Positions 42-64,000 of a DNA stretch of 64,000 nt are shown piece by piece. The notes beneath the pieces were generated by a model. That model saw only the letters and a list, made by a program, of their open reading frames with translations. It searched no databases and was not told where the DNA came from. This stretch comes from Arenibacter antarcticus (GTDB lineage Bacteria > Bacteroidota > Bacteroidia > Flavobacteriales > Flavobacteriaceae): positions 1,240,001 to 1,304,000 of the forward strand of contig NZ_CP166679.1 of the NCBI RefSeq assembly GCF_041320605.1, written 5' to 3'. The position numbers were made by a program, and so were the translations under genes. The number at the start of each line of letters is the position of its first letter. Within the stretch, counting starts at the first letter, position 1.

Positions 42-3000
42 TTAGAAACTTACATTAAGTTTAAACCCTACTGGTATGGCCCATGGGCTAACATTAAAGC
101 GTTCTATACCCTGCTTAAATTGGATACCACTCTTACCTTGTTCAGAAGATTCTTGTTGAAAAGCCATTTCCGGATCTACACCAATATCGGCTTTAGTCCA
201 TAAGATGATATTACGGCTAAAAAGCGAAATGGCTACATTCTGTAATCCTATTTGGCGAATTGCCTTACTAGGAACACTATACGTAAGGGATATTTCCCTC
301 AGTTTAAGAAAATCGGCATCAAAAGCAGATGTTCTGGCAAAATCCCAACCATAATGATCTTGATATCTGGTGTATACCGTACCTGGCCCGCCTAGGTTTT
401 CGGTAGTGGCTACAAAGTTTCCATTACCGTCATAATCCCCTTGTACACCTGGCATAAACACTCCGTCGTTTAAGGTGATACCACCTTCGCTTACTGGATA
501 ACCACCAGTGTTTGCGGTAGCTCCTCCTACTAAAACATAAAACTCACCATTTTCGGATAGGTATTTGCCTTCATTATTTTTCAAATAGGTAGGTAAATCC
601 CCTACATCGCTAAAATTGTGCATCTTATCCAACCAACGTTGAGTATGCATATCTGATTCTCCATATCGGTGGGTTTGCGAAATAAATTGTCCGCCTTTTC
701 TCCAATCAAAATTCATGGAAATGGACCAATTTTTATAGGAGGCCGAAGTGGTCATCCCCAGGGTGAAATCTGGATTAAAGTTGCCTATAACCGGGGCAAC
801 CCTTTTTCCATCTGCGTCCTCTAAAGTTCTATCACTATCCTCAAAACCAGAATCATCTATAATAGGCCAGCCATGGTAAGGGGAATTGGGATCGTCTACT
901 CTCACCAATGCCCTATCTATAATATTCCCAATTTCTTCACCCAACCAAGTGATGGCTCCTCCTTTGGCATCTTCCCAAAAGGTTACTGAATTCATTCCAT
1001 CGGCTAATTCCATTACTTTGGTACGGTTACGCCCAAAGACAAAGCCCATATCCCAATTCCAATCGCCATTGCTTATTAGAGTACCACTTAGACCAGCTTC
1101 TACGCCGCTACTTGTAATTAAACCTGCATTAATAAATCTATCCGGATATCCCGATGCTACATCAGCTTTAACCGGGAATATTTGATTCTTATTCTCACTT
1201 TCATAATAGGTGAAATCCATACGCAATCTGTTCTGGAAGAAAGCTAGATCGGTCCCTATTTCCCAAGAATCTTGAGATTCTGGTTTTAAATCTGGATTTA
1301 ACAACGTTCCAGGAACGGAAAGTCGGGATGCATTACCCCAAGAGCTACCGCTATTAAGTATAGGCTCTAAATTATAGGGATGGGTATCATTACCTACCTC
1401 GGCATAACCTGCTCTTAGTTTTATTAAAGAAACATTTCCCCCTAAATTTAGGGCTCTATTTATCAATAAACTTGTAGATATGGACGGGTAGAAATAGGAA
1501 TTATTATCATCTGGAAGTGTACTGGACCAGTCGTTCCTACCGGTTGCATCTATATAAAACATTTCCTTAAATCCAACACTTACCAAACCATACAAACTAT
1601 TCACTTGACGTTCGCTTTTATAAGACCTATAAACCAGGTTATCTGGAGCAATATTACCTAGGGTAAATAGTCCCGGAGTCAATATACCCGACCCTCTATC
1701 TATGGTTGAGTTCCTTACGGAAGAAGAACTGGTGGTTCGTTTATTACCACCGGCAGAGGCTGAAAAATCCCAGTCGTTAAATTTCTTCGCATAGGTAAGC
1801 AGGAAGTCAATATTTATTTCATTGTTTAGGATATCTTGAATACCATAGGCTCCGTTAATGTCGCCAGTATAGCCCTTGGACATTTTGGTTTCCCTTACCT
1901 CATTTATCTCATCAAAATTATAACGTACCATGGCCGAGAACTCATCTGTAATCTGCCAATCACCTGTTACGTTACCATAGAACCTATTTCTTTCAAAACC
2001 ATTATTTACCTCATGTGCCAAGAAATAAGGGTTGTTCCATTCGGTATCGGTTGGGTCGTCTCCAAAGGCAAAAGGCGAATTCTGACGAATTCCTTCGTAT
2101 CCAGGCAACCAATAATCCTTCATATCAAGCACATTAATATGAGGAGCAATCTCATACAATGCCTGCATAGGGTTTGCACCTCGGTTGGTTGCAGGTCTGT
2201 TGTCTGCACCTGATTTAGTATAATTAATGCTAGAACTAACCGTTATTTTTTCGTTTAATTTTAGGCCAGAATTTAGGTTGATACTGTGCTTACTAAGATC
2301 TGAATTTGGAATAAATCCTTCATGCTTCATATTCGAATAGGACAACCTATAATTCATTTTTTCAGAATTGTCCTGAATAGAAACATTATTGGAGGAGGTA
2401 ATAGCGGTGTTAAAGAAGTTTTTTGCATTGTCATATGACTTTAGCTCCCTTGCAACCGGTATACCACTTGCAATCTCTTGCGCGGTATAGGGCCAATGAA
2501 TTGCTTTAATGCCCTGATCTAAAGCTGGTCCTGCCCAAGCAGAACTTGTTTCTCCTATTATAATGGCTCCATAGGAATTAGCAGGATAATTGTCTTCAGT
2601 GTACGGCCTAGATCCAGCGGCAAATTTTCTATGGGTATCCAAATAGCGATACGGAATATCAAAGACAGTGCTCGAATTTACAGTTACTCCCAATCCTTTT
2701 TTTGCTTTCCCAGATTTGGTAGTAATCAACACAACACCATTACCGGCCCTAGAACCATATAATGCTGCTGCACTAGCCCCCTTAAGAACTGTCATGCTCT
2801 CTATGTCATCGGTATTGATATCGGAAATGGCATTTCCGTAATCAACTTTATTATCTCTACCAACTCCTCCTATATTATTGGGGGAATTAATTACTGGCGT
2901 TCCATCTATTACAAAAAGTGGTTGGTTGTCACTTGATAAGGAAGAGGCCCCCCTTATGTTAATATTGACAGTAGATCCAGGTCCCCCAGTAGAGTTGATG

Positions 3001-3455
3001 GCAACACCGGATACTTTCCCGGAAAGTGCATTCATCGCGTTCTCTTGAGGTACATTGTCTAGGGCATCGCCACTAACTTCACTTACCGCATATCCCAAGG
3101 ATTTCTTTTCCCTAGAAATACCGAGAGCGGTTACTACCACCTCATCCAATTCTTCAGAGGAGGTTTCCAGTACTACATTAATAGTAGTTTGGCTGCCTAC
3201 AGTTACTTCTTTGTTCTTCATTCCTAGGTACGAAAATGCGAGTACCGCATTCCCACTGGGCACAGAAATACTGTAATTTCCATCAAAATCGGACGTCACC
3301 CCTGTAGTGGTTCCCTTTACTACAACGGAAACCCCTGGAAGCAACTCTCCCGCATCACTAGTGATGACTCCTCTTACTTCTTGCTGCCCAAACATGATGG
3401 TAGTCATCATGCCGAACAGAAGGAGCATTAATATTTTTAAATTTTGGTTTTTCAT
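42..3455 (-). CDS. SusC/RagA-type TonB-dependent outer-membrane receptor
   Basis: Imports oligosaccharides across the outer membrane using TonB energy. The 1137-residue protein starts with a signal peptide (about residues 1-24, ending MFGQ). A CarboxypepD_reg-like Ig fold follows (about 26-105, with the PGVSVVVKGT and DFDGNYSI signatures), then a TonB-box-like DEVVV segment, a plug domain (about 115-250, with IRGASSL and VIDGTPV), and a beta-barrel that ends in the aromatic residue typical of barrels (NVSF). Length is normal for SusC. No SusD follows inside the window because the gene ends 41 bp from the left edge; the partner is expected just outside. A 337-bp gap separates it from the upstream HAD gene, so it may have its own promoter. 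Family certain; ligand unknown. Confidence 0.95.
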   Translation of the reverse strand: MKNQNLKILMLLLFGMMTTIMFGQQEVRGVITSDAGELLPGVSVVVKGTTTGVTSDFDGNYSISVPSGNAVLAFSYLGMKNKEVTVGSQTTINVVLETSSEELDEVVVTALGISREKKSLGYAVSEVSGDALDNVPQENAMNALSGKVSGVAINSTGGPGSTVNINIRGASSLSSDNQPLFVIDGTPVINSPNNIGGVGRDNKVDYGNAISDINTDDIESMTVLKGASAAALYGSRAGNGVVLITTKSGKAKKGLGVTVNSSTVFDIPYRYLDTHRKFAAGSRPYTEDNYPANSYGAIIIGETSSAWAGPALDQGIKAIHWPYTAQEIASGIPVARELKSYDNAKNFFNTAITSSNNVSIQDNSEKMNYRLSYSNMKHEGFIPNSDLSKHSINLNSGLKLNEKITVSSSINYTKSGADNRPATNRGANPMQALYEIAPHINVLDMKDYWLPGYEGIRQNSPFAFGDDPTDTEWNNPYFLAHEVNNGFERNRFYGNVTGDWQITDEFSAMVRYNFDEINEVRETKMSKGYTGDINGAYGIQDILNNEINIDFLLTYAKKFNDWDFSASAGGNKRTTSSSSVRNSTIDRGSGILTPGLFTLGNIAPDNLVYRSYKSERQVNSLYGLVSVGFKEMFYIDATGRNDWSSTLPDDNNSYFYPSISTSLLINRALNLGGNVSLIKLRAGYAEVGNDTHPYNLEPILNSGSSWGNASRLSVPGTLLNPDLKPESQDSWEIGTDLAFFQNRLRMDFTYYESENKNQIFPVKADVASGYPDRFINAGLITSSGVEAGLSGTLISNGDWNWDMGFVFGRNRTKVMELADGMNSVTFWEDAKGGAITWLGEEIGNIIDRALVRVDDPNSPYHGWPIIDDSGFEDSDRTLEDADGKRVAPVIGNFNPDFTLGMTTSASYKNWSISMNFDWRKGGQFISQTHRYGESDMHTQRWLDKMHNFSDVGDLPTYLKNNEGKYLSENGEFYVLVGGATANTGGYPVSEGGITLNDGVFMPGVQGDYDGNGNFVATTENLGGPGTVYTRYQDHYGWDFARTSAFDADFLKLREISLTYSVPSKAIRQIGLQNVAISLFSRNIILWTKADIGVDPEMAFQQESSEQGKSGIQFKQGIERFNVSPWAIPVGFKLNVSF

Positions 3456-3792
3456 GTTCTTGAGTTTTGTTTAAACGGTTTGATTATTTAATTACCTAAC
3501 AAATCTATCCTATTATTCGCACTATACTACATTACATATTATTAATTATACAGCATATCTTAACCCATATTGAGATAATATTAATTAAATGGAAATTAAT
3601 TGTTAATTTAATATTAGCATCTAAAAACCTCCCCTAATACACAATTGGAAAAATTTCGGCAAGGGGAATCTAATATGAAAGCTGCAGTACGCTTTTTGGG
3701 CATAGCAATACATGTAAAATTCCAGGTTATCTCAGCCCTTAGACCAGCACGAATTTTAATTTTTTAAAAAAAGGAAGAAGTTCCACACTATT
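3456..3792. other. AT-rich intergenic region upstream of SusC
   Basis: No gene is visible in this 337-bp gap. On the minus strand, 3507-3500 reads TAGATTTG, which fits the Bacteroidota -7 consensus TAnnTTTG and lies about 45 bp from the SusC start codon. No clear -33 TTG sits at the right distance, so this is only a weak promoter candidate. An AT-rich stretch at about 3575-3620 contains two copies of the self-complementary TAATATTA. Confidence 0.3.
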
Positions 3793-4437
3793 TTATAACA
3801 TCTGTTCTAAATCTCCTATTTGTGTAATGGCATAATGAATATCAGGAACCTGTCCGAAGCCGTAATCGGCAAAGACAAATGGAAGCTTATTGTCTTCTGC
3901 TGCCAAATAGTCCCCTAGTGTGTCTCCTACGTAAATTGAATTTCTTAAAGTATTTCTTTTTATCAGCATCCCGATATTTATAGCCTTAGACATAGCTGTG
4001 TTTCCTGAACATTCAAAATCTTTGAAATAGGCACCCAAACCATGATATTCATAAAAAGCTTCGATATAACCAGCCTGACAATTACTGACTATGAATAGAT
4101 CGTACTTTTTTCCTAAGGTCTCCAAAACAGCTTCCAATCCGGGGTACAAAACACCTCCAGCTTGCTTAATATCTTGCACCTCCTGCATATAACAACTGTT
4201 TATAACCTCGTCTTGCTGCTCTTTAGAGAGGTAGGGAAACAATTTCTCGCCCACCAGATTATGTTGCATTCCCATAATGCCCTGTATATCTTCTTGGGAA
4301 ATAGGATTTTCAATACAATCGAACCTATTTAATGCTGTATGCCAAGCCTTTATGCTCATGGGCATGGGGTCCCAAAGGGTACCATCCAGATCAAAAATGA
4401 TATTTTCAATGTTTTCCTTTAATACGCTCAGAATCAT
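3793..4437 (-). CDS. HAD-superfamily hydrolase (phosphoglycolate-phosphatase-like)
   Basis: Probable cytoplasmic phosphatase of the haloacid dehalogenase superfamily. The 214 residues carry motif I (FDLDGT; nucleophile D16 and acid/base D18), a helical cap (about 25-95), motif II (IVSNC) and the acidic motif IV (YVGDTLGDYLAAE), the arrangement of the Gph/beta-phosphoglucomutase subgroup. There is no signal peptide. It is the last gene of the run that starts at the symporter, 27 bp after the Gfo/Idh gene, so it may dephosphorylate a sugar-phosphate in that catabolic route. The exact substrate cannot be read from sequence. Confidence 0.85.
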   Translation of the reverse strand: MILSVLKENIENIIFDLDGTLWDPMPMSIKAWHTALNRFDCIENPISQEDIQGIMGMQHNLVGEKLFPYLSKEQQDEVINSCYMQEVQDIKQAGGVLYPGLEAVLETLGKKYDLFIVSNCQAGYIEAFYEYHGLGAYFKDFECSGNTAMSKAINIGMLIKRNTLRNSIYVGDTLGDYLAAEDNKLPFVFADYGFGQVPDIHYAITQIGDLEQML

Positions 4438-6383: not shown

Positions 6384-7670
6384 TTAATCCATCAATTCTT
6401 CGGCATGGGTATAAATCTTTTCTATAGCTAAGGCTACCAAATCCATATCTGCCTTGGTTCCCATCAACAATTTATGGTGCATGCAAACCGATTCTTCCTG
6501 AAATATCCGTTCGCAAACAGGCAGTGAAAATCGCTTCGGATCAATGGCCTTCCAATAAGCATCGTTTAATTTATGTCTGGAAGGTTTTGTGTGCGGTACG
6601 TATAAAGAACAATTGTTCAGGGGCTCGTAACTGGCATCTACTACAATTCCCAATTCCGCCTCCAAGGCACTTCTGAATTTTTCTATGGACAATCCCTTAA
6701 AATCATTTTTATGGTACCTAAACGCAAAATTAAAGTAGGCTTTTTTAGTTTCCCTTTTGTCCCTTGCAATAGCGGATACTCCAGGAATTTCTGAAAGCAG
6801 AGCATTTAAATACTCCCCATTTGCATCTCTATTTGCATTTTGAGCAGGCAAGCGCTTTAGACCTTCAATTAAGATAGCTGCCTGGAATTCGGTAATCCGT
6901 AGATTCCCTGACTGAATAAAATTACCATCGTCATCTCCATAATCCCCAGCACCCTTATCCACTCCTTCCAAAGTGGCAGCTTCAGGTCTCCTACCGCAGT
7001 TTCTAAGTGCATCCAATTTATCTGCCAATTCTGAATTATTGGTAGTTACAGATCCACCTTCCCCAGCGGTCAGATGTTTGGACAATTGATAGCTAAAACT
7101 ACCAATATCCCCAATACTGCCCGCTTTTTTACCATTCCATTCCCCACCGTGTTTGTGGGCACAGTCCTCAATAACATAAAGATTATGTTTCTTGGCTATG
7201 GCCATTACAGCATCCATATCTGCAAAAGCCCCATACAAATGCACGGGAATAATAGCTTTTGTTTTTGGAGTTATGGCTTTTTCAATTTCTTTTGGATCAA
7301 TACACCAGGTATCTTCACTTACATCGACCAATATAGGAGTGGCATTTACGTCGATTACAGTAGCCGCAGTGGCCTGCCAGGTTAAGCCCGGGACAATAAC
7401 CTCATCTCCAACCCCTATCCCTAAGGCTTCAAGCGCAATTTGCAAAGTTATGGTACCATTTACCGTGCAAATGGCATGCTTAACTCCAGTATATTCTGCA
7501 AAAAGTCTATTAAATTCAGTTTCCTTGGGACCGTTATAGGACCATACTCCACTATGGAGAACCTCAATCAGAGCAACTTCCTCTTCTTGCCCCCATACTG
7601 GCCATTTAGGCCAGGGATTCTTGGTAGTATCTCTACAGGGGGCTCCCCCATATATTGCTAATTTTTTCAT
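6384..7670 (-). CDS. DegT/DnrJ/EryC1/StrS-family PLP-dependent aminotransferase
   Basis: PLP enzyme that aminates a keto-sugar or keto-cyclitol, or runs in reverse to deaminate. The 428 residues have the family features: the cofactor-loop VNGTITLQIALEALG (about 70-84), PGLTWQAT, the aspartate that binds the pyridine nitrogen in VIEDCAH (about D169), and the Schiff-base lysine K198 in SFSYQLSKHLTAGEGG. The segments around residues 70-104 remind me most of the scyllo-inosose/2-deoxy-scyllo-inosose aminotransferase branch (StsC/BtrR); that is recollection, not a search. It lies 36 bp after GH2 and is followed by GDPD and Gfo/Idh. No biosynthetic cluster is nearby, so a catabolic role on an amino sugar or aminocyclitol is plausible. 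Confidence 0.88.
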   Translation of the reverse strand: MKKLAIYGGAPCRDTTKNPWPKWPVWGQEEEVALIEVLHSGVWSYNGPKETEFNRLFAEYTGVKHAICTVNGTITLQIALEALGIGVGDEVIVPGLTWQATAATVIDVNATPILVDVSEDTWCIDPKEIEKAITPKTKAIIPVHLYGAFADMDAVMAIAKKHNLYVIEDCAHKHGGEWNGKKAGSIGDIGSFSYQLSKHLTAGEGGSVTTNNSELADKLDALRNCGRRPEAATLEGVDKGAGDYGDDDGNFIQSGNLRITEFQAAILIEGLKRLPAQNANRDANGEYLNALLSEIPGVSAIARDKRETKKAYFNFAFRYHKNDFKGLSIEKFRSALEAELGIVVDASYEPLNNCSLYVPHTKPSRHKLNDAYWKAIDPKRFSLPVCERIFQEESVCMHHKLLMGTKADMDLVALAIEKIYTHAEELMD

Positions 7671-7706
7671 TTTTTATAAATTGATGTTATTACTGCATAC
7701 TTGAAA

Positions 7707-10280
7707 CTATAATAAATTCCACCCCTCTACCTTTAATTGCGCCTCCCCTTTGAAGGAGTAGGTTGCAGAAATAGTCCGCTCTTCCCCAGGAAGTAAGGTT
7801 AAAAAATTATCCTCCCAAAAAATAGGGAGTATTAAATTATCAGTGACCTTATCTACTAGCTTAAGATTGATTAAAAAGGCAATATAATTGTTATTATTTT
7901 TTAGTTGAACTTCAATTTTCTGAGTTTCTCCTTCCTGTTCAAAATGATGTGTCTCTTCTAGGTGGACTTTAGGCAAGTGGTTCAATTCCGTAAGGTCTGC
8001 GTATTCTTTACTGGGGGTATGAAAGGCAAAATCGCCCAAATCTGCTCCATAATCCAATACTTCCTCTTTTGTGGAGAGCCAATAAAAATTATTGTTGATT
8101 TCAACTCCATCCTTATTAATCAATCGTAGATCTATAAAATAGGTGGTTGTTAGCCCTTTCAATTCCTTCAGTGCCAGGATAGATTTAGATGAATCCGGTT
8201 CTAAGTTAATGGCAACCTTTTCATCCAATAGTATTTCTGAGTTTATGGAAAACACCCTGATCTGGGCTTCTAGGTTTTCTACCCGATACGTATGGTCATT
8301 AACGGCATAAATGTGTTTATCCCCATAATTGTATATCAGGCTTAAAGGCTTACATGCCTTTTGCGTAGCGTAAAATGCAGCTGTCGGATTTAAGTAATAG
8401 TCGTACAATTGCCAATACATTTTGGGCCAGGCCGCATTCAACATCCATTGGATGACACCTGTTGATCTCTTTTTGTACACCTGAAAAGCTTCGAACATGG
8501 GGCGCATAAGCTCATAGTTCATAGCCTGAGCCTTTTTATCGAACTCCTCCAAAGAACTTGGGGTTCCATATCGTTCCTCAATAGCCTTGGTAAATCTACT
8601 TAAATCCGCAAATTCATACCGGCCGCAATGATAGTTCCATGCTTCTCCAATAGGCCATAACTGCTCCTTCGGAATCATCCTTTTTAAACTTTCCAATTGG
8701 GGAACTTGTGCTCCGGGACCTGTTTCGGTATTAAATCCGTAGGCTCCACCCAATTTGGTGTCTGTAAACCAGTATACCGGCGCGGTATAGGCATAGGGAC
8801 CTAACATTTTTACTCCGGAAGATCCACTAATCTCACTAATGACATCCTCGCTGCCTATAACATGCTGATCACTACCCACACCCCCGGTGGAATTTAAATA
8901 TGGCCTTGTGGGGTCATATTTGGCAAAGGTGTCTATATATTTTTGTTCCAATTCCGTAATAGGGACTTTGTCACTTGCTACCGTCCAAACGAAGATACTT
9001 GGGTGATTGCGCAACCATATTACTTGATCTTCCCAAGCTTGGGCTATATGGGCTATATCCTTAGGTTTGTATACCCCTCCAAAACGCTCGTTTACGGGCA
9101 CCCCCATATGGATTTCATGTTCCCAATGACAGCTCCATCCTACCATTAACAAAATCCCATGTTGGTCACATAAGTCGTAGAGTTTATGATCTTTCCCCCA
9201 AAAACCTTCCAAACGAATACAATTTAGATTCATTTGTTTTACGTACTTCACCTGTGCTTCAATACTTTCATCGGTATCCATTAAAAGCATATCATCTGTC
9301 CATCCGCCACCTTTAATCAAGACCTTTTTTCCGTTAACTTTATATCCTCGGTGAATATCATCTAACCAATAATCCTCTATTTCGCGAATTCCAAATCTTA
9401 GCTGGGTCTCATCTAAAACCTCATCACTGGCCACAAATTTTAAATCCAGATCATACAGATCGGGATTACCCAAATGAATTGGCCACCACAGTTTTGGTTC
9501 TTTAAAATGAAGTTCAGAAAACGCTGTACTTGTAAAGATGACTAGCTCCTTATCCTTAGGGGCAAGGCTAATCTTTTTCTTAAATAATATAGTCCCTATG
9601 GTTCCAATTAAATCTCCTGAAATGACAGTGTCAGAATAGTTTATTAACTCCGTTGAAACGGTTAAGTGGGCTTCTTTTAGGGTTTCTAGGTTTACTTTGG
9701 TCTGTACAAAGGGTTTTTCAATGTGTACCCCACCGTGGAGATGCAAGGTTACAGGTCTAAAAACACCCATGTTCCCATCTGGGGGTGCAGGATTCCAATC
9801 TACAAAGCCAGTACTGAAATCGCCTGGTTTGGGAGGAATTACCTCAATGGCCAATACGTTTGTACCCCTAATGAGGTAGTCACTTACATTAAAAGCAGTT
9901 ATACGAAATGCCCCATCAATAGCCTTGGTATTCGCAATAAGATGACCATTTAACCATACATTGGCCTTGTAATTAATGCCGTCAAAATTTAGCCTTGCAA
10001 AATTATTCGCTTGTTCCTGGGTAAGTTCAAAATTAGTGGCATACCACCATGGCACTTTAAAAAGCTCGGTTGGAATTGACTTTAGATTTTCCCCAAAATA
10101 GGGATTTTCGTAAACCTTATTGGCTACTAAAGTGCTCAAAACTGTAGAGGGAACTTTAGCGGTTAGCCAATTATTTGAAATTGAGGACTCGGTAGAAATT
10201 TCACCCCCTTTTTCCGAAACTTTATTTGAACTCTGGATTCTCCAATTATCCGATAACGCAATTTTTACGGAATTATGCAT
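7707..10280 (-). CDS. Glycoside hydrolase family 2 enzyme (exo-glucosaminidase/mannosidase-like)
   Basis: Retaining exo-glycosidase of 857 residues with the GH2 layout: N-terminal jelly roll (about 10-185, ending NPAPPDGNMGVFRPV), Ig-like domain (about 190-290), TIM barrel (about 300-640) and C-terminal beta-sandwiches. The acid/base region reads TVASDKVP, with an Asp at D437 rather than the usual NE pair, and the nucleophile is E519 in FNTETGPG. The SD plus NxET pattern is what I recall from exo-beta-D-glucosaminidases of the CsxA type; beta-mannosidase-like activity is the alternative. No signal peptide is visible, so it should act in the cytoplasm on a small glycoside brought in by the symporter two small genes upstream. 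It begins 26 bp after the 76-residue membrane protein. Confidence 0.9.
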   Translation of the reverse strand: MHNSVKIALSDNWRIQSSNKVSEKGGEISTESSISNNWLTAKVPSTVLSTLVANKVYENPYFGENLKSIPTELFKVPWWYATNFELTQEQANNFARLNFDGINYKANVWLNGHLIANTKAIDGAFRITAFNVSDYLIRGTNVLAIEVIPPKPGDFSTGFVDWNPAPPDGNMGVFRPVTLHLHGGVHIEKPFVQTKVNLETLKEAHLTVSTELINYSDTVISGDLIGTIGTILFKKKISLAPKDKELVIFTSTAFSELHFKEPKLWWPIHLGNPDLYDLDLKFVASDEVLDETQLRFGIREIEDYWLDDIHRGYKVNGKKVLIKGGGWTDDMLLMDTDESIEAQVKYVKQMNLNCIRLEGFWGKDHKLYDLCDQHGILLMVGWSCHWEHEIHMGVPVNERFGGVYKPKDIAHIAQAWEDQVIWLRNHPSIFVWTVASDKVPITELEQKYIDTFAKYDPTRPYLNSTGGVGSDQHVIGSEDVISEISGSSGVKMLGPYAYTAPVYWFTDTKLGGAYGFNTETGPGAQVPQLESLKRMIPKEQLWPIGEAWNYHCGRYEFADLSRFTKAIEERYGTPSSLEEFDKKAQAMNYELMRPMFEAFQVYKKRSTGVIQWMLNAAWPKMYWQLYDYYLNPTAAFYATQKACKPLSLIYNYGDKHIYAVNDHTYRVENLEAQIRVFSINSEILLDEKVAINLEPDSSKSILALKELKGLTTTYFIDLRLINKDGVEINNNFYWLSTKEEVLDYGADLGDFAFHTPSKEYADLTELNHLPKVHLEETHHFEQEGETQKIEVQLKNNNNYIAFLINLKLVDKVTDNLILPIFWEDNFLTLLPGEERTISATYSFKGEAQLKVEGWNLL

Positions 10281-14345: not shown

Positions 14346-16013
14346 CTAATGCTGATAAGCCTTCATGGGTTGCCCTCTTAAACGCTCAAAAACATTATAA
14401 GCCCGCTGGATAGCCTCGGGCTTTGTCCGCTCAAATTCCTTTGGCGTCACTTGATATTGCTGTTGCAATTGAGCCAATCGTTTTCTTAAAAGCTGTTCCA
14501 CTTCATTATACATATCATCATGGATTACATTATTGATTTCTGAAGGATCTTCTTTTAAATCGTATAGTTCCCATTCATTAATGTCATCATACACATGAAT
14601 CAACTTATAACGATCGGTTCTAATACCGTACATTTTCTTAACCATATGAAAAGCAGGGAAATCATAATAATGATAGTAGATAGCATCCCTAAAATCTTCA
14701 TCCCTTACGGAATTGGTCAACAGTGGCTTTAATGATTTTCCTTGCATATCCTTAGGAATATCTACTTGTGCAAAATCTAAAAACGTTTCTGCAAAATCTA
14801 GGTTTTGGGTCAATGCCGTAATTTCTGTTCCTGGTTTTATTAGCGCGGGATATTTCATAAGCATGGGCATTCCTAGAGATTCCTCATACATAAAACGTTT
14901 GTCAAACCATCCTTTTTCGCCCAAATAAAACCCTTGATCGGTTGTATATACCACAATAGTGTTTTCCGCCAGATCATTGGCTTCCAAATAATCCAAAATC
15001 TTGCCAACACCCTCGTCAACTGCCGCGATCGTAGTTAAATAATCTTGTAAATAGCGTTGGAGTTTCCAAAGATCCAGGTCCTTCCCAGATAAATTAGCAT
15101 CGTGAAAGGCATCATTTTTTGGTTGATATGCTTTATCCCAAGCTGCACGTTGTTCTGGGGTCATGCGTTCAAAATCTGTTTTCCATGGGTTGTGCGCCAA
15201 TTCCGGACTGCCCTTTTTCTTAGTCATTTTTAAATCATGACCCTCATACATATCTCGGTAAATGGTTTGATACTGTTCTTTGGAAGCCGTGGAACCTTCG
15301 TTGTCCATAAAATAGGTGTCCGGTACCGGAAACTGTATGGAATCATATAAATTTAAATGGCGTAGCGCAGGCATCCAGTTCCTATGTGGGGCTTTGTGCT
15401 GCACCATAAGCATAAAAGGTTGGCTATCGTCTTTAATTTTATCTAAATAACGGATGGCATCATCGGTAACAATATCTGTTGCATAGCCGTGAACCATAGT
15501 AGTATCCACTTTTTTTGTTTCTGGATTTACAGAAATAAAATTAGGGTTGTAGTAATTGCCTTGGTCCTGTAGAATGTTCCAATGATCAAAACCTTCTGGC
15601 TCCCCGTGCAAATGCCATTTCCCAAACATGGCGGTTTTATAACCTGCTTTTTGCAACAGCTTTGGATACGTTTGCTGACCCCCATCAAAGCGGTCTCCGT
15701 TCATCCTAAATCCATTGATATGGCTATGCTTACCGGTTAGAATTACCGCTCTACTTGGCCCACAGATGGAATTGGTGCAAAAATTATTTCTAAAAATTGC
15801 ACCTTCAACCCCAATTCTATCGATGTTTGGTGTTGGCGCCAATTGACTGATAGGATGCCCATAAGCGCTAATAGCTTGGGCGGCATGGTCATCGGCCATT
15901 ATAAAAAGAATATTGGGCCTTTTATTTTCAACGGTTTTTTTTGGTTGCTCCCGTTTGCACGAAAAGCTAAATACTACAAAAATTAAAAGCAATAATTTAT
16001 TAAAGTAATACAT
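14346..16013 (-). CDS. Secreted S1-family sulfatase lipoprotein
   Basis: Removes sulfate esters from glycans. I start at the ATG at 16013 (MYYFNK), because the longer reading uses TTG. The 555-residue protein has a lipoprotein signal (FSFSC, C19), the metal-binding start of the alkaline-phosphatase fold (D41-D42 in MADDH), and the sulfatase signature CGPSR with C84, which needs conversion to formylglycine. A second conserved block is GKWHLHG (about residue 128 on). The Cys-type signature means a formylglycine-generating enzyme must exist elsewhere. It lies 49 bp after GH3 in the PUL operon. A close architectural relative is encoded at 52949-54583. The sulfated sugar is unknown. Confidence 0.92.
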   Translation of the reverse strand: MYYFNKLLLLIFVVFSFSCKREQPKKTVENKRPNILFIMADDHAAQAISAYGHPISQLAPTPNIDRIGVEGAIFRNNFCTNSICGPSRAVILTGKHSHINGFRMNGDRFDGGQQTYPKLLQKAGYKTAMFGKWHLHGEPEGFDHWNILQDQGNYYNPNFISVNPETKKVDTTMVHGYATDIVTDDAIRYLDKIKDDSQPFMLMVQHKAPHRNWMPALRHLNLYDSIQFPVPDTYFMDNEGSTASKEQYQTIYRDMYEGHDLKMTKKKGSPELAHNPWKTDFERMTPEQRAAWDKAYQPKNDAFHDANLSGKDLDLWKLQRYLQDYLTTIAAVDEGVGKILDYLEANDLAENTIVVYTTDQGFYLGEKGWFDKRFMYEESLGMPMLMKYPALIKPGTEITALTQNLDFAETFLDFAQVDIPKDMQGKSLKPLLTNSVRDEDFRDAIYYHYYDFPAFHMVKKMYGIRTDRYKLIHVYDDINEWELYDLKEDPSEINNVIHDDMYNEVEQLLRKRLAQLQQQYQVTPKEFERTKPEAIQRAYNVFERLRGQPMKAYQH

Positions 16014-61715: not shown

Positions 61716-61758
61716 GCTCCCCCTCTTGGGCTCGAACCAAGGACCCTCTGATTAACAG
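61716..61758 (-). other. 3' fragment of tRNA-Asn (GTT): probable attachment site
   Basis: On the minus strand the sequence reads anticodon loop CTGTTAA, stem half TCAGA, variable loop, T-arm CTTGG-TTCGAGC-CCAAG and acceptor AGGGGGA plus discriminator G. The 5' half is absent: the required stem partner TCTGA is replaced by unrelated bases (TGAGG). This is the signature left when an element integrates into the 3' end of a tRNA gene. The intact tRNA should be at the other end of the element, to the right of this window. Confidence 0.85.
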
Positions 61759-61874
61759 CCTCAAAAGTGGTGGTTTCATGCAGCTTCATTTATCTTCTTA
61801 TAGTCTGATTATCAATATTTTATGAAAAATTGTTTTGTATTTGGTTATATAATTTTTACATTTAATAGCCCATT

Positions 61875-61962
61875 TGTTTGACCTATGTTTGACCTAATTC
61901 CAAGAAATAAGTTTCAGGTATTAAGCATGTTATGGATCATTAGTACTAAAATGTTTGACCTA
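61875..61962 (+). repeat. Three 11-bp direct repeats before the integrase (arm-site-like)
   Basis: TGTTTGACCTA occurs at 61875-61885, immediately again at 61886-61896, and at 61952-61962, just before the integrase start at 61974. Iterated short sites near attL are typical arm-type binding sites for tyrosine integrases with an N-terminal arm-binding domain. Confidence 0.8.
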
Positions 61963-61973
61963 AAATACTAAAC

Positions 61974-63194
61974 ATGGCTAATTTAAAAATTGTTGTAAAG
62001 AAAAAAAAATCAGATGTGAATGGGCATCCTGTTTATTTACGTGTAACCAAAAATAGGCAATGTAAATATTATAAGACTCCTTATACGGCAACAGCGGACG
62101 AATGGGTAGCTGTTAGTGAAAAATTTAATAAACGTAATTCCAATTATGTACAAAATAATCGACTGCTCATAAAATTTAAAGAAAGAGCATACAAAATTGT
62201 TACCGAATTGGAAATTGAAAATCCTGACTATACATTACAAGATTTTGATAATCGATACAGAATTACCTTCAATCCTGTCAGTAACGATGTATTTGCCTTT
62301 TTTGATGAGATTATTCAAGAAATGACCTTTGCCGGCCGTATAGGAAACGCTAAATCCTATAAAGACACAAAAACTTCAATTCAAATATTTTATAAAATAA
62401 AGAAGCTCAAATTTAGGGATGTAAACCATACTTTTTTAAGTAAATATGATGCATTCCTTCGATCTAGAGGTGGCACGGATGGTGGTGTTGGTGTAAAAAT
62501 GCGTGCCATAAGGGCATTGTTTAATAAAGCTATAGCACGTGGTGTAATCAAGGAAGGGCTATATCCATTTAAGACCTATAAGATATCCAGATTAAGAGGC
62601 AAAGGTTTTAAACGTGCATTGGATTTTGAAGAGATTATGCGTATCATCAAATTAGATTTGTCTGACAATCCCCATTTAATCAATACCAGAAATTACTTTG
62701 TTTTTAGCTTCTATACCAGAGGCATGAACTTTGCCGATATGATGTGCTTGGAATGGAGAGATGTTGAAGCTAGTGTCATCTATTACACTAGAGCGAAGAC
62801 CAAAGGAAACTTCTCCATCGCCATTATGCCTCCAGTTCAAAAAATACTTGCCTATTACCGAGAACATGGTTATGGCAACAAATATGTATTTCCCTTGCTA
62901 TTTCGTGAAGACTATACCCCCACCCAACTTGCCGATCGAAAACATAAAATGCTGGGCATATACAATATAGAGCTTAAGGAAGTGGCCAAACTATGCAATA
63001 TCACCAAAAATGTAAGCAGTTATGTTGCTCGCCATAGTTTTGCCAATTGCCTCAAACAAAAAGGTGTGGCTACAGATGTGATCAGTGAATCCCTGGGCCA
63101 CCAAAATCTGGGTGTTACCCAAGCATACTTGAAAGAATTAGATACGGAGATTGTGGATAAGGCGCTTGAAGTGCTATTACAACCACCAAGGTAA
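61974..63194 (+). CDS. Tyrosine recombinase/integrase
   Basis: Site-specific integrase of 406 residues that would insert the element into tRNA-Asn. An N-terminal arm DNA-binding domain (about 1-95, GHPVYLRVTKNRQCKYYKTP) precedes the SAM-like core-binding domain (about 105-205) and the catalytic domain. Active-site residues: R249 in FYTRGMNFADM, R353 in YVARHSFANCL (where the usual His of HxxR is Tyr, as commonly seen in Bacteroidota integrases), H376 in SLGHQ and nucleophile Y385 in QAYLKELD. All catalytic residues are present, so it should be active. It is oriented into the element. Confidence 0.93.
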   Translation: MANLKIVVKKKKSDVNGHPVYLRVTKNRQCKYYKTPYTATADEWVAVSEKFNKRNSNYVQNNRLLIKFKERAYKIVTELEIENPDYTLQDFDNRYRITFNPVSNDVFAFFDEIIQEMTFAGRIGNAKSYKDTKTSIQIFYKIKKLKFRDVNHTFLSKYDAFLRSRGGTDGGVGVKMRAIRALFNKAIARGVIKEGLYPFKTYKISRLRGKGFKRALDFEEIMRIIKLDLSDNPHLINTRNYFVFSFYTRGMNFADMMCLEWRDVEASVIYYTRAKTKGNFSIAIMPPVQKILAYYREHGYGNKYVFPLLFREDYTPTQLADRKHKMLGIYNIELKEVAKLCNITKNVSSYVARHSFANCLKQKGVATDVISESLGHQNLGVTQAYLKELDTEIVDKALEVLLQPPR

Positions 63195-63330: not shown

Positions 63331-63745
63331 ATTCTATTCTTATTTTCAATTAATTAGATTTTTCATGTAACATGAAATTAGTTCAAAAATGAAAACGGGG
63401 TTAGTCAGGGAACAATGAGAGAGCAAATTTATTCTCGTAATTGTACAATGTGAATGCACAGTCTCAACTAACAAAAAAAATGCCATACAACGGTTATTTT
63501 CGATCTTTATCGATTAAGCACATACCAAATCTAATATTTGCTACCTTAGAAGGTTTATAACAAACTCTTGGTTGTAGTATTCCCCCCTCTATACATCCTC
63601 ATAAATATTATTTAATTAATAAGATTTATAGTACACTAAAATGTATACAAGTAGGTCCAGGTAAAATGGAAATATATGTGCCGGTACATATATCCGTACG
63701 TTACCTGCAAGGCTGAATAAACATTCGAACTAAAAACAAAATTTA
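63331..63745. other. Element-internal regulatory gap with a palindrome
   Basis: A 415-bp stretch with lower coding potential than its neighbours. ATATATGT (63672-63679) and ACATATAT (63686-63693) form a perfect inverted repeat around GCCGGT, 52 bp ahead of the next start codon, suited to an operator. I see no intact gene in the remainder. Confidence 0.5.
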
Positions 63746-64000
63746 ATGCAGAAAGATTACCAACAATTAATATCAAGTGTAAGAGGAAGAATTAACCCTG
63801 AAAATTTCGCATTAAAAAAAGCCTTTTCTGATGAATTATCAACGATTTCTTATAGCCAAGTTTTGATATATATTAGACTTGCAATGAAAGGTGTAGAACC
63901 AGAATATACTCAAAGAAGTAAAGATGCTGGAGAAAGAGTTAAAGAGCATTTAAGTAAAGAACTTGAGAACGTTACATTTAGATATCAAGGTTCTGTAATG
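63746..64000 (+). CDS. N-terminus of a probable cGAS/DncV-like nucleotidyltransferase (CD-NTase), cut by the window end
   Basis: 85 codons are visible from the ATG at 63746. They include FSDELSTISYSQVLIYIRLA, then MKGVEPEYTQRSKDAGERVK and, at the window edge, NVTFRYQGSVM. The last motif is the start of the nucleotidyltransferase GS loop, which in CD-NTases is followed by TxTxI and the SDIDLL metal motif; these would lie just outside. The long helical N-terminus fits CD-NTases of CBASS anti-phage systems, which make cyclic nucleotide signals for an effector. It is in an integrase-bearing element, a common setting for such defence genes. The call rests on recall of the family pattern, not on a search. 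Confidence 0.65.
   Translation, partial: MQKDYQQLISSVRGRINPENFALKKAFSDELSTISYSQVLIYIRLAMKGVEPEYTQRSKDAGERVKEHLSKELENVTFRYQGSVM

Follow-up and report, generated by a model that had tools for sequence, protein, structure and literature searches.

A two-gene STING CBASS as a probable integron-like cassette in Arenibacter antarcticus

The CBASS operon and its tRNA-Asn element

The analysed DNA (64,000 nt, here called the window; G000:C1:1240001-1304000) belongs to a host genome consisting of one contig of 4.69 Mb and ends within the gene cdnE (Table 1). Beyond the window, the host contig was followed as L003, where the window coordinate equals the L003 coordinate plus 58000. A sequence-only reading of the window had taken the truncated gene at its right edge for a CD-NTase, with the GS motif just beginning. 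In agreement with this, the frame closes beyond the window at 351 aa, and its product matches the PADLOC cyclase model over its full length (4.1e-154). The best solved chains are 6wt9 (1.7e-104) and 6wt8 (8.7e-65), that is, the STING-associated CdnE c-di-GMP synthase. The active-site residues of CD-NTases are present (GS...SDIDLL...VD, with G82-S83, D95, D97 and D189 as the third acidic residue), among them the SDID-type metal residues whose absence had been set beforehand as speaking against the assignment. Instead of a kanamycin-type or ParB-linked family, which had been named as the alternative, the best matches are CdnE-type cyclases adjoining STING.

The effector gene expected to the right of cdnE was found as a TIR-STING gene overlapping it, while the search for Cap2 and Cap3, suggested together with that for an effector, gave no match among the neighbour genes searched. 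The TIR-STING protein matches the PADLOC effector model (4.7e-121) and comprises a TIR domain at residues 5-123 (Pfam CAP12-PCTIR_TIR, 1.5e-26) and a STING domain at residues 154-290 (Pfam prok_STING, 2.2e-40). It aligns over its full length with solved Cap12 chains and scores below the curated 450-bit cut-off of the NCBIfam Cap12 equivalogs (NF050172, 308.9 bits; NF050171, 180.3 bits). Its best solved relative is 9lmq (7e-74), which we take to be ElSTING. The NADase pocket described for SfSTING of Sphingobacterium faecium in PMC9402430 maps to F7, S11, W34, L50, R81, N83, E87 and D113, with W40 at the position of SfSTING F37 (inferred numbering offset). Residues L203, D260, E264 and L280, which PMC12421889 links to the spiral and bundle forms of ElSTING under calcium control, are retained as L200, D256, E260 and L276, as counted by hand on the alignment; D256 and E260 would make up a predicted Ca2+ site. 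The lid motif of class I bacterial STING, RX(Y/F) according to PMC8748872, reads R-K-H here and in a 71%-identical relative. Relatives of the protein are rare, with 5 of 397 family genomes containing one at E 1e-20, the own genome counted.

By their sequences, cdnE and the TIR-STING gene make up a complete two-gene CBASS with a predicted STING-type suicide effector, and we predict that the latter is a c-di-GMP-triggered, ElSTING-like NADase. Upon phage infection CdnE would, by homology, make 3'3'-c-di-GMP; as suggested by the solved relatives, this would lead to TIR-STING filaments, whose TIR domains would destroy NAD+ and stop the cell. The operon probably serves phage defence. With respect to the systems described in PMC9402430 and PMC12421889, it resembles the CdnE/TIR-STING CBASS of SfSTING and of ElCdnE-ElSTING from Epilithonimonas lactis in that a cyclase gene is followed by a TIR-STING gene in a two-gene operon; the cyclase is related to the solved STING-associated CdnE and the NADase residues are retained. 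It differs from them in the lid, where R-K-H replaces RX(Y/F) or RXR, and in being carried, as argued below, as a cassette.

Table 1. Coordinates of the genes, sites and repeats discussed in the text
Feature	Location	Strand	Description
Left end of tRNA-Asn element	window 61716-61758	.	43-nt direct repeat of tRNA-Asn 3' part, exact
Right copy of 43-nt repeat	L004:12800-12842		inside intact tRNA-Asn, L004:12800-12874
25-nt direct repeat near left end	window 61872-61896; second copy L004:12726-12750	.	exact match
Tyrosine integrase of tRNA-Asn element	window 61974-63194	+	406 aa; Pfam Phage_int_SAM_5, Phage_integrase (9.5e-13), Arm-DNA-bind_5
Leader and attI-like element	window 63458-63702	+	dyad at 3' end; ends G^TT
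Strongly conserved leader core	about window 63528-63590		AATATTTGCTAnCTTAGAAGG...TTGGTTGTAGTACTCCC
Palindrome (dyad) of attI-like site	window 63658-63707	.	arms of 25 nt each with 72% complementarity; followed by crossover word GTT, 63700-63702
Putative CBASS cassette	window 63701-64000, on to L003:7871	+	2,171 bp; begins TTACCTGC
cdnE, CD-NTase of CBASS	window 63746-64000, on to L003:6801 (L003:5746-6801)	+	window holds 85 of 351 codons and ends RYQGSVM
TIR-STING gene	L003:6798-7727		3' of cdnE, 4-nt overlap; 309 aa
Cassette 2 gene	L003:7872-9203		443 aa; weak Mrr-type nuclease match, below Pfam cut-off; no NCBIfam match at 1e-10
Cassette 3 genes	L003:11803-15599		metallophosphoesterase gene overlapping HSP90-like ATPase gene; no strong PADLOC match
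Own 375-aa recombinase P0004	L156:13937-15061	minus	near 1.636 Mb on the host chromosome

The integrase gene in front of cdnE had been recognised correctly, as had the tRNA-Asn integrative element around it. ARAGORN finds no tRNA within the window; the attribution to tRNA-Asn holds because the 3' part of an intact tRNA-Asn recurs in the window as an exact 43-nt repeat. As the right copy of this repeat lies within that tRNA gene, the element measures 29,084 bp and extends beyond the window. The 25-nt repeats are possible arm-type sites of its integrase. The element also contains genes for an Mrr-like protein and a metallophosphoesterase/HSP90-like ATPase pair, an IS91-like element and McrBC (Pfam), followed further to the right, by eye, by an AAA/HNH-like pair and type I restriction-modification-like genes. 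Elsewhere its cargo includes an AriA-like gene (genome G212) and, in genome G403, a CBASS whose TIR-STING is 71% and whose cyclase is 29% identical to the present ones, so that two tRNA-Asn elements of the genus hold mosaic CBASS operons (L102:5468-7433 and L003:5746-7727). A two-gene CBASS within a 29-kb tRNA-Asn integrative element is by itself ordinary.

A dispersed leader with an attI-like end

The palindrome in front of cdnE had been proposed as an operator. The palindrome is real, but the operator role was not supported, and the attI-like end of a dispersed element fits better. A plain operator was rejected in view of the dyad and GTT behind a recombinase gene, the break of homology at the GTT of the element and the change of cargo described below. 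The exact palindrome word is not widespread: in a pattern search tolerating 2 mismatches at most, 4 of 299 family genomes contained it, the own and one of the same genus included. The palindrome is retained in one relative.

The element of ~245 bp has relatives at 70 places in 13 of the 18 genomes of the genus. With nhmmer, 83 copies were detected on the fetched stretches, 80 of them at 40 bits or more. An ORF of at least 90 aa follows 75 copies, on the same strand in 69 of these 75, and in 41 of the 69 same-strand copies the conserved core is separated from the start codon by 140-210 nt. Over the 80 copies this core is the most conserved part of the element, above the attI-like dyad. A search of L003:3600-12000 against Rfam gave no match at E up to 1, and the leader therefore matches no listed RNA family. 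It may act as a promoter, as an RNA leader or as a protein site; we infer promoter activity for it.

Nine non-self HSPs extend past query position 240. Seven of them stop at positions 243-244, which correspond to the GTT at L003:5700-5702, and two at position 252. Homology with the tRNA-Asn element of G212 stops with the final base of the GTT, L003:5702; that with the tRNA-Asn element of G403, where the ~245-bp element has a 3' end unlike the dyad, stops earlier, at L003:5618. We also considered whether the ~245-bp element might be the attC belonging to a cassette upstream of it. This was rejected as the upstream gene at the own locus is the tRNA-Asn integrase and, on inspection, its 5' box shows partial conservation and is not cassette-specific. 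In one genome, a 40-kb array (L141-L143, G399:C4:617500-657500) consists of mostly same-strand, mostly single-gene units, and in front of the majority lies a truncated element copy without the first ~70 positions.

The DNA behind the element changes between loci. Among anchored copies with an upstream match of at least 400 nt, from which three with a doubtful poly-T GTT were dropped, the first 1.2 kb downstream are unrelated in 15 of 19 upstream-matched locus pairs (blastn; the pairs are not independent, as several share loci). At megablast sensitivity, with the three doubtful copies included, no downstream match was obtained for 22 of 28 upstream-matched pairs. One locus, with 96% identical upstream DNA, carries three cargoes in G212, G400 and G402, namely an uncharacterised gene (306 aa), a CBASS and a caspase-like gene. 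Conversely, the CBASS units of G400 and G373 share 90% identity over 2,018 bp in an alignment that starts exactly at the GTT, while the DNA upstream of them differs and the element copies preceding them are only about 71-77% alike.

Of the first genes behind the element, 64 non-redundant ones out of 70 were compared with PADLOC at 1e-10. At least 10 of the 64 gave a match, versus 1 of 64 controls, which were genes taken from these loci as well; the matches include three cyclases, HamA, SoFic, dGTPase, PDC-S06, PDC-S60, Avs2 and AriA. Other first genes encode acetyltransferases, SnoaL and DUF1697 proteins, as in ordinary cassettes, and hence the site is not defence-specific.

Cassette-like units and the 375-aa recombinase

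An integron cassette starts (R', G^TTRRRY) with the complement of the R'' box in its own attC, located behind the gene. For the CBASS, GTTACCTGC at L003:5700 has its exact 9-nt complement, GCAGGTAAC, at L003:7743-7751, 15 nt behind the stop codon of the TIR-STING gene, and both words occur once in 118 kb. The pair of cassette 3 fits exactly as well, with GTTAGCTGC at L003:11739 and GCAGCTAAC at 15614, again with one occurrence each in 118 kb, although the end of its attC-like site is not sharply defined. Cassette 2 starts at the junction GTT at L003:7871, and its R'' box is split by the IS91-like element (TTGCC / AAC). The 8-nt R'' word of this cassette is fairly common, being present 4 times in 118 kb, and its site folds weakly when the flanks of the insertion are joined (-8.7). 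The excised form of the CBASS attC folds with -16.3 for the top strand (2 of 200 shuffles were as good) and -13.0 for the bottom strand (11 of 200); the integrated form folds no better than shuffles. The junction of the excised CBASS circle is predicted to read ...CCGTTACCTGC.

The IS91-like element, which encodes an HUH transposase and a XerA-like recombinase, is present in three copies, at L003:9221-11619 and, on the minus strand of L156, at 1530-3932 and 7152-9550. All three lie at attC-like R'' boxes, between a variable part (TTGCC, GCTGCT or GCAGCT) and AACAA; the element thus seems to target attC sites.

The relation between start word and R'' box was then evaluated for the other copies of the element, 58 of 80 of which could be anchored; 22 were left out as they have no GTT at the respective column. 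A 9-nt complement within 6 kb was found downstream in 14 of 56 copies and upstream in 0 of 57, leaving 42 of the 56 without an exact pair. Permuted tags gave 1.5 pairs on average and 5 at most (200 permutations), compared to the 14 observed. After removal of redundant cargo, the counts are 13 of 51 versus 0. Behind the recombinase gene described below, pairs were seen at 7 of 10 testable loci (of 13 in total), versus 1 of 10 upstream. A further count covered 32 of 80 loci, chosen as being judged Bacteroidota and having DNA behind the gene; they include Winogradskyella, Seonamhaeicola, Aequorivita, Aquiflexum, Algoriphagus, Cyclobacterium and others. Here pairs were present at 15 of 32 loci, versus 13 of 192 control windows, which lie mostly inside the recombinase gene. 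In their excised form, 23 attC candidates fold with a mean of -19.4 kcal/mol, whereas 300 controls constructed in the same manner reach -14.0 kcal/mol (p 9e-6). Eleven of the 23 are 135-137 nt long, and some of the others look like chance pairs.

At the CBASS array itself, no integrase of the 375-aa type adjoins the attI-like site. The same chromosome encodes one such protein, P0004, which scores 232.1 bits with the XerA profile NF040815 (cut-off 220) and 198.4 bits with the integron-integrase model TIGR02249 (cut-off 265). Residues R235, H324, R327, H350 and Y359, presumably the catalytic ones, with Y359 by alignment as the catalytic tyrosine, are invariant in all 15 aligned sequences, and the first ~105 residues of P0004 have no match in Pfam. 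In the IntI-specific region P0004 has 26 residues where IntI4 (2a3v) has 69; judged from this alignment, the IntI-specific insertion is missing. PMC9668308 calls this region defining, integrons being characterised there by IntI with its additional domain. Across the genus, TIGR02249 has matches in 18 of 18 genomes, above its cut-off in none, and it also matches in 4 of 14 control genomes.

By reading, the 375-aa recombinase type was found in 12 of the 18 genomes, once as a fragment at a contig end. A dyad with GTT follows the recombinase stop codon at all 13 loci viewed, several of the dyads being imperfect; 6 of these 13 sites are detected by nhmmer with the element model, and the remaining loci rest on alignment. 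Likewise by reading, the element is present without the recombinase in G397, G402, G406 and G411, and the recombinase without the element in G398, G404 and G405. Recombinases of 355 aa were rejected as the integrase, as no dyad-GTT lies behind L171 and L173, the two 3' flanks inspected. Most of the viewed loci contain a small cysteine-rich gene, zinc-ribbon-like by eye, divergent to the 375-aa gene (L157:12637-13023, L156:15155-15535). The first cassette behind P0004 (L156:13153-13854) encodes 233 aa, FRG-domain-like by eye and without an NCBIfam match at 1e-10.

Competing readings and relation to known integrons

Judged from the junction words, the attC-like site, the change of cargo and the homology that sets in at the GTT, an integron-like gene cassette is the most likely nature of the CBASS. 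With a probability of roughly 0.83, a CdnE-type two-gene STING CBASS moves here as such a cassette, the 375-aa XerA-like recombinase most likely acting in trans. The operon would be flanked by the attI-like site (dyad and G^TT) on one side and, on the other, by an attC-like site of its own with an R'' exactly complementary to the start word. Three cassette-like units would follow a single attI-like site on the tRNA-Asn element: first the CBASS, then the Mrr-like protein, and last the metallophosphoesterase and HSP90-like ATPase. Capture and exchange would be performed in trans by the 375-aa recombinase encoded at about 1.636 Mb, which itself has a site of the same kind and a cassette of its own behind its stop codon. 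It is by this adjacent site and the cassettes that we assign it as the putative acting recombinase; that cassettes are exchanged at the attI-like site is indicated by the comparison of genomes.

An ordinary CBASS in an ordinary defence island, with genes gathered by homologous or illegitimate recombination and complementary words arising by coincidence, would agree with the several restriction and defence-like genes on the tRNA-Asn element and with the lack of an exact 9-nt pair in 42 of 56 element copies. It is very improbable given the distribution of these pairs (14 of 56 downstream versus 0 of 57 upstream), homology that starts exactly at the GTT amid unrelated surroundings, and cargo changed in 15 of 19 upstream-matched pairs, and it is further weakened by the folding of the attC candidates (-19.4 versus -14.0 kcal/mol). 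The ~245-bp element could also be a regulatory leader or promoter, or the end of a small transposon, with differences in cargo brought about by homologous recombination between its copies. That conservation peaks in the central core instead of the dyad, and that core and start codon lie a constrained distance apart (140-210 nt in 41 of 69), speaks for a leader; yet homology stops at the GTT rather than at the core (7 of 9 long HSPs), the recombinase gene is followed by dyad and GTT but not by the core, and R'/R'' pairs exist, which makes this an unlikely account of the exchange. A promoter leader and a recombination site can both be true of the same element.

Equally doubtful is a canonical integron in which a true IntI acted earlier or elsewhere and the 375-aa recombinase is a bystander. 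The attC-like sites do look canonical, with R''/R' and L''/L' stems and 135-137 nt in 11 of 23, IntI1 recombines foreign attC sites (PMC9668308), and the Bacteroidetes/Chlorobi group is reported to contain intI genes (PMC2426708). Against this stands that TIGR02249 scores above its cut-off in 0 of the 18 genus genomes, and that the attI-like site and first cassette directly follow the 375-aa gene, likewise in the named Bacteroidota.

The system shares several properties with integrons built from IntI, attI and attC, as described in PMC9668308 and PMC9024848: a same-strand cassette array, an attI-like site adjoining the gene of a tyrosine recombinase, attC-like sites that have a folded form and whose R' and R'' are complementary, and the crossover word GTT. 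Unlike in those integrons, the recombinase has no IntI-specific insertion and instead an extra N-terminal part of ~100 aa (no Pfam match), its gene points towards the cassettes, the attI-like site is a dyad, and integrase-free copies of leader and attI-like site are scattered over the genome. The absence of an integrase in cis recalls CALIN, clusters of attC lacking integrase (PMC9668308); unlike in CALIN, an attI-like site with a conserved leader, both recurring genome-wide, heads the array. In PMC9024848, IntegronFinder 2.0 is described to have found one complete integron in Bacteroidetes, in Salinibacter.

It appears likely that Bacteroidota have an integron lineage of their own, with a XerA-like recombinase and a dyad attI behind its gene. 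Scattered integrase-free copies of leader and attI, on the chromosome and on tRNA-Asn elements, would then be landing pads that exchange whole defence operons including STING CBASS. As this recombinase has no IntI-specific domain, such a lineage would have been missed by IntI-based surveys. In 2025, phage-defence genes were reportedly described as integron cassettes in Vibrio and mobile integrons, using IntI; unlike there, the present case involves a XerA-like recombinase, Bacteroidota and a tRNA-Asn element. In the open-access literature (most subscription papers and bioRxiv were outside the scope), we found no account of Bacteroidota integrons that lack the IntI domain. If true, a working integron without the IntI-specific domain would question the need for this domain and add a capture system to a major phylum. 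The cassette reading further offers a specific and testable path for the spread of CBASS operons between genomes, and the DNA between these sites would be a hunting ground for new defence systems. The gene pair of cassette 3 is a candidate two-gene defence system.
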